DNA of 64,000 nt from assembly GCA_039545275.1 (NCBI GenBank), contig BCHS01000010.1:248001-312000 (forward strand), given 5' to 3'. Each line of letters begins with the position of its first letter. Positions within the stretch are counted from its first letter, which is position 1. Below are positions 14,619 to 16,091 of this stretch, piece by piece. The notes below the pieces were generated by a model. The model made no database searches. It saw only the letters and a list, made by a program, of their open reading frames with translations, and was not told the origin of the DNA. The position numbers were made by a program, and so were the translations under genes. The stretch is from Pseudomicrostroma phylloplanum (taxonomy: Eukaryota; Basidiomycota; Exobasidiomycetes; Microstromatales).

Positions 14619-16091
14619 TCACCCTCCTCGCTCTTCTTCGCCTTGAGGAAGGACCTTTCGCCTGGGCAGCTGCTGAGGGACCTGCTGCTTTGCTGCCTCA
14701 GCCTTGGCCTCCTCAGTTGCCCGTTGCTGGACACTCCAGTCAAAGACGTAGTCGTACTGGAAGCCTTCACGAACAAAGAGGTCGCGGAAGAGCTTTCGCA
14801 GGTACGAGTAGTCGGGCTTGTCGTCGAAGCGCAGAGAACGGCAGCAGTTGAGGTAGATGGCCATCTCGGAAGGAAAGCCTCGGCAGAGGAGCTCGGTCGG
14901 TGTGGTCATCTTCTTCTCCATGATGCGGTCGTACTTCTGCTTCTTGGTGGCAGCCTTGAGACCTTGCCATGGCAGCGAGCCTCGCAGGAAATACATGAGA
15001 ACATAGCCCAGAGATTCGAGATCGTCACGTCGCGATTGCTCTGTTGGAATATGGAGTGGTAGGTTTTGGATGGTCAGTTTACGTCGTCTGAGAGTCAATC
15101 GGCTTTTACTTCGCAGCTTGTTGCAATCTATGCGCATGCTGCCGGACCACTCATCCACTGCCATTGTACTCACCAACGCCCAAGTGAGTGTTGATCGAAG
15201 TGTAACGAGCAGTACCAGTCAGGTTCTTGTTCTCCCTGTAAGGGATGTGCAGATGCGTCTTGGGGTCTCGGTACTTCTTTGCTAGACCAAAGTCGATGAC
15301 ATTGACCTGGTTACCACGCTTTCCGATTCCCATCAAGAAGTTGTCAGGCTTGATGTCTCGGTGGATGAAGTTGCGCGAGTGGATGTACTCGATTCGTGAG
15401 ATCATCTGGTCAGCCAAGAGGAGCACCGTCTTGAGGGAGAACTTCCGGTTGCAGAAGTTGAACAGGTCCTCCAGGGAGGGTCCCAGCAGATCAATGACCA
15501 TGGCATTGTAATCGCACTCCTGTCCGTACCATCGCACAAAGGGCACTCCTACTCCTCCTGCCAATGTCTTGTAGACCTTTGCCTCATACTCGAGTTGGGG
15601 GTGCTTAGCCTTGATTGACTCAAGCTTGATGGCCACCTCCTCACCTGAGATGATGTTGATGCCAAGGTAGATGTCACCAAAGGATCCCGAACCAATCTTC
15701 TTTCCGATACGGTACTGTGGGCGTGAAGTAAAGAGGTATGCATGTCAGTGTGAGAGACGAAGGGGGTTCAGGAAATTGTGCCCAGGCCACAAACTCACCC
15801 TAGCAAGAGGTGATAGCAATGAGAGTAGCGCAAAGGAGGGAGAAAGGGGCATAGAAAGTCAAGTGTCAGCTCAGTACGATGTCATGTTCCGGTCGACCTG
15901 CACCTGCTCTTTCCTGACGTCCGTCCATGCCACCTTGAGCCTTAGCCTGACTGAGCACAATGGCGTGTACCACGGAGCCGTACATTGCTCCGCTCCTTCG
16001 AGTATAGCCCCTCTATGCTGAGCTCCATATCACCCCCTTGACTCCTGCCATAGCATATAGACACTCACTTTCCACCGACTCGGAGATCCAT
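14619..16091 (-). CDS. HRR25: Casein kinase 1 (CK1 delta/epsilon, Hhp1/Hrr25-like)
   Basis: Minus-strand exons are 16091-16069, a single base at 15799, 15714-15174 and 15040-14619, giving 328 residues. The product starts MDLRVGGKYRIGKKIGSGSFG (glycine loop), then VAIKLE (catalytic Lys), HRDIKPDNFLM (catalytic loop), IDFGLAKK (DFG) and the CK1 signature in place of APE, followed by EQSRRDDLESLGYVLMYF. This is the nuclear/cytosolic CK1 delta/epsilon class, Ser/Thr kinases acting in DNA repair, ribosome maturation and cell-cycle control. The reading frame from GGK to YRIG is only kept if one G at 15799 is an exon by itself (see the separate entry). The gene may continue past 14619, because the stop overlaps a perfect GTGAGT donor (exon ending GGAGG). 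The C-terminal tail after the kinase domain is then short and incomplete. Confidence 0.93.
15799..15799 (-). other. Predicted one-nucleotide exon in the CK1 gene
   Basis: Exon 1 ends in AA, two bases of a Lys codon, before GTGAGT at 16068. Exon 3 starts TACCGT after CCCACAG. Joining them directly shifts the frame; one extra G restores the universally conserved GGKYRIG. Exactly such a G sits at 15799, preceded by CTTGCTAG and followed by GTGAGT. Upstream of that CTAG is a CTGAC branch-site match at about 15868-15864. It is followed by about 65 bases of pyrimidine-rich sequence with no AG, as expected of a true 3' splice site. The downstream 84-base intron has its own CTGAC and CACAG. Confidence 0.75.

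Follow-up and report, generated by a model that had tools for sequence, protein, structure and literature searches.

A probable one-nucleotide coding exon in a fungal CK1 kinase gene

Results

A phase gap near the start of a CK1 gene

The window analysed here is a 64,000-nucleotide (nt) stretch of fungal DNA (G000:C10:248001-312000, from a genome of 17.08 Mb in 20 contigs), and it carries, on its minus strand, a gene for a protein kinase of the CK1-delta/Hrr25 type. The gene is best read as five exons of 23, 1, 541, 418 and 61 nt, the second of which would be a single G at position 15799 of the window. The predicted product is a protein of 347 residues in an unbroken frame, MDLRVGGKYRIG...DQQWY. 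It contains a Pkinase domain (96.7 bits), aligns with a solved CK1-delta structure starting at residue 1 (555 bits), and belongs to the CK1-delta/Hrr25 class by similarity over its full length, including the N-terminal MDLRVGGKYRIG. The closest named fungal CK1 among the matches listed, P0002 of Jaminaea pallidilutea, shows 98% identity over 98%; a taxonomy lookup places Jaminaea in the Microstromatales (Exobasidiomycetes, Ustilaginomycotina). A search of the whole genome returned one strong CK1-delta copy, together with a second CK1 on contig C9 that is 55-61% identical.

In minus-strand orientation, the last two bases of exon 1 are AA, a GTGAGT donor follows (16068), and the kinase exon opens with TACCGT (15714) after a CACAG acceptor that ends at 15715. 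Joining the two directly shifts the frame and leads to a stop after 62 residues; one extra base at the join restores the near-invariant MDLRVGGKYRIG. The G at 15799 supplies that base and repairs the codon exactly, and it stands alone, with a complete acceptor before it and a complete donor after it (TAG^G^GTGAGT, 15802-15793; carets mark splice borders). As the original prediction had described, the upstream intron (intron 1) has a pyrimidine-rich tract and a branch motif, and the downstream intron (intron 2) is 84 nt long with CTGAC and CACAG of its own. The branch A of intron 1 is at 15866. A direct recount agreed that the next acceptor upstream, ending at 15870, would produce a 71-nt exon that is out of frame. 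Every coordinate in that prediction proved right, and at the level of sequence the observation is confirmed.

If every GT or GC donor and every AG acceptor is allowed, 65 frame-compatible internal exons without a stop, the lone G included, can be placed between exons 1 and 3. Exactly one nucleotide is inserted, giving MDLRVGGKYRIG, by two of the 65: G 15799 and A 15908, the latter with a GC donor and with an acceptor, CAGGAAAG, that lacks a pyrimidine tract. The introns that flank the G are well formed, intron 2 being typical and intron 1 long with a distant branch motif (67 nt). Both have complete GT..AG ends and the G would be left in the mRNA after both excisions, so the arrangement is not a stwintron. 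Neither is it a ratchet point of recursive splicing, which is a zero-length exon, with AG directly before GT, that adds nothing to the mRNA; here the order is AG-G-GT, and the G is required for the conserved protein frame.

Splice-site quality and chance occurrence

The window and 200 kb of contigs C1 and C2 served to train a small gene model, with CK1 itself in the training set. The 136 training introns have a median length of 88 nt and the consensus elements GTGAGT, CTGAC and CAG. In a first version of the model the branch motif was searched for within 60 nt and one-base exons leading from phase 1 to phase 2 were disallowed; in the corrected version the branch window was 80 nt and all one-base exons were allowed. 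Without homology input, the corrected model returned exactly the 23+1+541+418+61 structure for CK1. Ranked among the 136 trained introns, donor 1 stands at the 79th percentile and donor 2 at the 85th, while the acceptor and the length of intron 2 stand at the 78th and 43rd. Intron 1 is at the 96th percentile of length; a single 354-nt intron spanning the whole interval would be at the 99th. The model is not prone to inventing tiny exons: over 309.6 kb its corrected version gave 87 internal exons, three of them of 1 nt (the one in CK1 and two in the urease accessory gene ureG, described below), and the next smallest was 17 nt.

The motif AG-N-GT occurs 1895 times on the two strands of 264 kb (528,000 positions), with a donor score of at least 8 in 10 cases, CK1 among them. 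The tract at the CK1 site has a pyrimidine fraction of 0.80 over 60 nt, a value reached by 0.21% of 40,192 AGs, and the site has a 68-nt run free of AG; at the other nine strong-donor sites the corresponding figures are at most 0.50 and at most 7 nt. CK1 is alone among the ten in combining such a tract and AG-free run with a branch motif scoring above 6. Of 300 versions of the 354-nt stretch given an interior of first-order random sequence, 18 yielded some one-base-exon model.

CK1 proteins of related fungi

Three homology searches, each taken to the best 120 of about 7,990 matches, together yielded 152 different proteins. An intact N-terminal pattern, [DE]LRVG[GN]KYR[ILV]G[KR], is present in 105 of these; 29 are altered before the kinase start, and 18 fit neither category because they are divergent or are fragments beginning further along. 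The altered group is made up of 11 proteins from named Ustilaginomycotina, 14 unnamed metagenome proteins (79-83% identical to the CK1 of Malassezia caprae, with eight of the 14 compared with other Malassezia-like proteins), and P0001, P0039, P0050 and P0080. All 25 proteins of the first two kinds go wrong immediately before YRIG; the remaining four differ elsewhere, and none of them breaks directly before the Y. Eleven of the 12 named Ustilaginomycotina CK1 proteins among the listed matches break at exactly this point. They come from Jaminaea, Ceraceosorus, Pseudozyma flocculosa, Exobasidium, two species of Tilletia and five of Malassezia and, by one taxonomy entry per genus, belong to orders that include the Microstromatales, Ceraceosorales, Ustilaginales, Exobasidiales, Tilletiales and Malasseziales.

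The residue before the Y is Q in 17 of the 25 proteins, as would result if CAG^TAC were read in frame; the K, R, L, C or V found in the other eight would come from other joins. The Tilletia indica protein P0008 reads HHGSPRRWK^YRIG, and shifting it into another frame recovers MDLRVGG at one offset only, namely CAYCATGGATCTCCGCGTMGGTGGAAR followed by TAC. The decoded exon end, GGTGGAA(A/G)^TAC read in the wrong frame, indicates that exon 1 of this species ends two bases into the lysine codon and has been joined straight to TAC. T. laevis P0009 contains the same exon in another frame, with a continuation compatible with AA^GTGAGC, and no shuffled peptide fitted the Tilletia decoding (0 of 2000 and 0 of 1000). 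The M. caprae protein (GGK-YV) can be reconciled with AA^GTAYGT and that of M. vespertilionis (GG-NG) with an exon that ends in AA, while the Exobasidium protein (GGK-VS) is what would be expected, other readings being possible, if the annotated exon began at the lone G and ran into GTNAGY. Searches for the relatives' CK1 DNA found no relative among viral contigs and, among genome contigs, only four matches of 29-30% identity from planctomycete metagenome-assembled genomes.

Together, the altered N-termini and their decoding place the one-base gap most simply early in the subphylum. They suggest that related fungi share the one-base exon and that gene annotation has missed it, and the CK1 site is probably old in the Ustilaginomycotina.

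Some individual proteins deserve separate mention. P0036 and P0037, metagenome proteins close to Malassezia, have an in-frame insert, VRSELTQ, at the junction (residues 12-18); its back-translation, GTN MGN WSN GAR YTN ACN CAR, would accommodate GT..CTNAC-N-CAG and so resembles a retained intron of 21 nt. P0027, from Logan contigs of at most 1705 bases, is a Malassezia-like CK1 with an intact MDLRVGGKYRIG and is perhaps transcript-derived; its nearest named relative among those compared, P0051 of M. yamatoensis, is annotated from MRTNRQ, apparently inside the intron. The CK1 of Microbotryum silenes-dioicae, P0080, is irregular in its annotation after MDLRVGGKYR and before RIG; this spot differs from that of the smut-subphylum break, and another small exon or intron has perhaps gone unrecognised in this protein's gene.

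Two candidate one-base exons in tandem in ureG

A genome-wide pattern search led to ureG on the minus strand of another contig (locus L048, G000:C19:279233-282289). This gene lacks two bases between ...ETGGC and the exon starting T-CAC-GCC (HAAIRED), and the gap would be filled by two successive C exons separated and flanked by introns of 98, 96 and 82 nt, with junctions at C19:280935^280836^280739^280656. These exons give ETGGCPHAAIRED, so that the proline codon CCT would be drawn from three exons, and the product with both of them, ...VETGGCPHAAIRED..., is a complete protein of 291 residues. It scores above the NCBIfam UreG cut-off (263.8 versus 204.2 bits; the first 195 residues alone score 139.2), and when that 195-residue part is aligned to two solved UreG chains, the joint is crossed without a gap. 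No two-base CC exon is present in the interval, and the only other C+C pair needs a poor GC donor. Unaided, the model finds the two one-base exons with a score 8.3 above that of the next choice, a 44-nt exon that would insert residues beside the conserved CPH. Among 300 randomised ureG interiors, none gave two one-base exons, none reached the observed score, and one gave a single one-base exon. The splice sites themselves are middling (donors at the 31st, 21st and 54th percentiles; acceptors at the 15th, 60th and 63rd), which counts against the ureG case. We nevertheless regard it as stronger than CK1 when judged on sequence features.

All 15 loci from the first genome-wide pattern search were run through the model, and one-base exons were predicted in ureG alone. 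No one-base exon emerged from the 20 of 23 distinct sites modelled from two further patterns, nor from four additional modelled sites; in 6 of the 24 modelled stretches (L049, L056, L059, L060, L070 and L071) no gene was predicted at all, so these are little informative. The 18 rows of another pattern comprised CK1, ureG, one modelled site and 15 judged by eye only. Of the 25 rows of three more patterns, 3 were modelled, 2 were the ureG sites, 3 had been tested earlier and 17 were left out, as were 5 of the last pattern. With the search incomplete, the three one-base exons counted in two genes are a minimum.

Two patterns were far rarer than their reversed controls, CTAAC..YAGNGTRAGT (2 versus 18) and CTGAC..YAGNGTAAGT (2 versus 12), possibly through avoidance of false splice sites or through composition; CTGAC..YAGNGTGAGT and CTCAC..YAGNGTRAGT showed no such depletion. 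A common origin of the flanking introns was also considered. Of the 15 intron pairs compared, two had a z above 2 relative to shuffled letters: CK1 intron 1 paired with ureG intron 2 (z 4.5) and ureG intron 2 paired with ureG intron 3 (z 3.7). Shared CT-rich tracts are suspected, and we give this result no weight.

The remaining features are listed in Table 1. The upstream neighbour of CK1 (window 16925-17209, minus strand) ends with PCI and RPN5_C domains, identifying it as the 26S proteasome subunit RPN5.

Table 1. Features of the CK1 gene (window positions) and the candidate one-base exons of ureG (contig C19 positions)
Feature	Position	Strand	Basis
CK1 exon 1, 23 nt, ATG...GGAAA, MDLRVGGK minus its last base	16069..16091	-	sequence; T. 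indica protein decodes to a matching end, three other relatives agree with one
Intron 1, 269 nt, GTGAGT...CTTGCTAG	15800..16068	-	donor score 8.79
Intron 1 branch motif AGCTGAC, branch A 15866, 67 nt before intron end	15865..15871	-	best motif in 120 nt upstream, score 6.25
Candidate exon 2, single nucleotide G	15799	-	sequence; chosen by trained gene model
Intron 2, 84 nt, GTGAGT (15798-15793)...CCCACAG	15715..15798	-	splice-site scoring
Intron 2 branch motif CACTGAC, branch A 15745	15744..15750	-	splice-site scoring
Exon 3, kinase domain, 541 nt, starts TACCGT at 15714	15174..15714	-	sequence, homology, domain match
Intron 3, 133 nt	15041..15173	-	sequence and gene model
Exon 4, 418 nt	14623..15040	-	sequence and gene model
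Intron 4, 97 nt	14526..14622	-	gene model
Exon 5, 61 nt, ends ...DQQWY stop	14465..14525	-	relatives P0002, P0004, P0005, P0007, P0008 and P0009 likewise end in WY
Rival alternative first exon, ATG...AGG (MPLSPSFALLSLLSPLAR), 54 nt, shares donor at 15798	15799..15852	-	score 53.07 versus 53.93 for the one-base-exon model
Candidate ureG one-base exon C, CTCTCAG^C^GTAAGT	C19:280836 (L048:1604)	-	sequence and model
Candidate ureG one-base exon C, TTGCCAG^C^GTGAGT	C19:280739 (L048:1507)	-	sequence and model

Discussion

The best explanation of the CK1 locus as a whole, and one in which we place high confidence, is that G 15799 is a constitutive one-nucleotide coding exon, spliced stepwise, whose skipping would shift the frame. 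That a single-nucleotide exon is the correct interpretation is very probable: as the original prediction had proposed, it is the model best supported by protein homology, by splice-site quality and by the phase gap that the relatives appear to share.

Several points weigh against it. The 67-nt branch distance of intron 1 is unusual, 5 of the 136 trained introns having their best motif, a strong one, 55 nt or further away, and in the first model acceptor 1 fell at the 3rd percentile because its branch motif lay beyond the 60 nt searched. That model preferred a 54-nt alternative first exon beginning at ATG 15852, and once the branch window spans 80 nt, this alternative trails the one-base model by just 0.86. 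Three of the 300 randomised CK1 interiors reached the observed score, and genome-wide the YAGNGT patterns were not clearly in excess of their reversed controls (15/21, 18/20, 7/9, 19/17, 2/18, 2/12, 21/24 and 5/13). Among the relatives, Ustilago loliicola P0003, a named member of the subphylum, has an intact junction, as do two unnamed proteins that appear to belong there, P0004 (Exobasidium-like) and P0027 (Malassezia-like). As a correction to the original prediction, the first acceptor falls short in some respects, given its remote branch motif and the closeness of the ATG 15852 alternative. Given that margin and the randomised controls, sequence alone makes the one-base exon likely without settling it.

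In the ATG 15852 alternative the transcript would start inside intron 1, the 54-nt first exon (MPLSPSFALLSLLSPLAR) would use the donor at 15798, and exon 1 would be unused or confined to another isoform. Besides its scores, it has an open frame and the same strong donor, and the sequence upstream of the annotated ATG is CT-rich in places. It would, however, discard MDLRVGGK, which aligns from residue 1 in solved CK1-delta structures and is found as [DE]LRVG[GN]K before YR in 105 of the 152 listed homologs; an exon that encodes MDLRVGGK perfectly and is followed by a GTGAGT donor lies upstream of this ATG, and the same exon is still readable in the T. indica and T. laevis proteins. We therefore consider such a start unlikely. 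An assembly error, with one base dropped from the edge of an exon and a single intron filling the 354-nt stretch, would also account for the gap, since one G inserted at either junction mends the frame. Yet the phase gap recurs in T. indica and is consistent with the proteins of T. laevis, M. caprae and M. vespertilionis, and ureG in this genome shows a gap of two bases; moreover, the intron would lie at the 99th percentile of length, and the internal branch motif, the tract, the AG-G-GTGAGT and the 84-nt intron would all be products of chance. This makes an error very unlikely.

Less credible still is a single intron with a non-canonical border, TG..AG or GT..CA, that takes the G from either edge. 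Both AAAG^TGAGT..CACAG^TACC and AAA^GTGAGT..CACA^GTACC would yield the right mRNA, but these borders fall outside the classes efficiently spliced by the U2 spliceosome, and the complete set of canonical sites in the middle of the stretch would go unexplained. A longer in-frame internal exon is scarcely to be entertained: although the 65 open choices count in its favour, all but two of them add residues inside GGKYRIG, no donor in the region other than those at 16068 and 15798 scores above 1.7, and no acceptor other than those at 15715 and 15800 scores above -2.

If the one-nucleotide exon is used, the lone G would complete the lysine codon of MDLRVGGK ahead of YRIG, and both flanking introns would be ordinary U2-type introns, each carrying a full set of donor, branch motif and acceptor and recognised through intron definition. 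The acceptor of intron 1 and the donor of intron 2 overlap, one base apart, so the two introns would have to be removed one after the other and not simultaneously. A two-step route is plausible: were intron 2 to leave first, AA^GTGAGT..TAG^GTAC would still be intact, and were intron 1 to leave first, AAG^GTGAGT..CAG^TAC would remain, with a donor that no trained donor outscores. We lean towards intron 2 leaving first, given its stronger sites and typical length. Skipping of the G would give a 62-residue frameshifted product, probably a target of nonsense-mediated decay. In ureG, three introns would be removed in sequence.

Single-nucleotide exons, which the original prediction knew from plants, are no longer a plant phenomenon only. 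A one-base exon in Fusarium CYP621A genes is described as supported by 18 SRA reads (PMC12940212, 2026). As that report presents it, this too is a fungal nuclear gene in which a conserved motif is restored by a one-base exon, a G within AGGGT; the exon is conserved among orthologs and lies where nearly all database gene models are wrong (PMC12940212). CYP621A is there an ascomycete P450 of unknown function with a 139-nt region in F. graminearum, documented by reads (PMC12940212), whereas CK1 is a basidiomycete kinase with a 354-nt region, possibly subphylum-wide, and known here from its DNA sequence. One-base microexons are likewise described in land-plant APC11 and VPS55, where, as in CK1, they are conserved over large clades and missed by annotation, with wrong N-termini as a result (PMC4674806, PMC8831610). 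In Arabidopsis APC11 the exon is placed 333 nt into a 422-nt stretch, a long first and short second intron that resemble the 269 and 84 nt of CK1 (PMC4674806); unlike CK1, the APC11 case is in plants, has A as its base, and is reported as tested with constructs (PMC4674806, PMC8831610). In their account of APC11, Guo and Liu suggest that such adjacent sites can hardly be occupied by two spliceosomes together, and propose intron definition and stepwise removal (PMC4674806). A further one-base exon is reported in placozoan mitochondrial cox1 (PMC5436844). Fungal stwintrons, as characterised in PMC5639578, resemble CK1 in having two successive U2 introns that need consecutive excision; there one of the outer intron's splice elements is split by the internal intron and no exon base separates the two, whereas the CK1 introns are complete and one base would enter the mRNA.

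The CK1 exon is a new addition to a known and very rare class, and the tandem ureG pair looks new as well, one step beyond the published cases that we found. A literature search, covering few subscription papers so that absence is unproven, turned up no title on one-base exons in CK1 or UreG, and a search on tandem or adjacent microexons with the same limited coverage turned up no consecutive one-base exons in titles or the beginnings of abstracts. Whether the two genes reflect a common pattern is, in our judgement, an evenly balanced question. On such a joint reading, one-nucleotide exons would be recurrent and ancient in the Ustilaginomycotina; the one in CK1 would date from the common ancestor of that subphylum and have been kept in an essential kinase, where skipping could set dosage, and the tandem exons of ureG would make a proline codon from three exons. 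If true, ureG would show the spliceosome passing two one-base exons in succession.

A one-base exon would explain why CK1 gene models are wrong at the same residue in most of the smut-subphylum fungi examined, and such exons can be detected in practice by looking for phase gaps at conserved motifs. The main interest of the finding lies in its apparent spread across the subphylum and in the tandem ureG pair: a one-base exon in a universally conserved kinase, apparently subphylum-wide, would be a natural study system.
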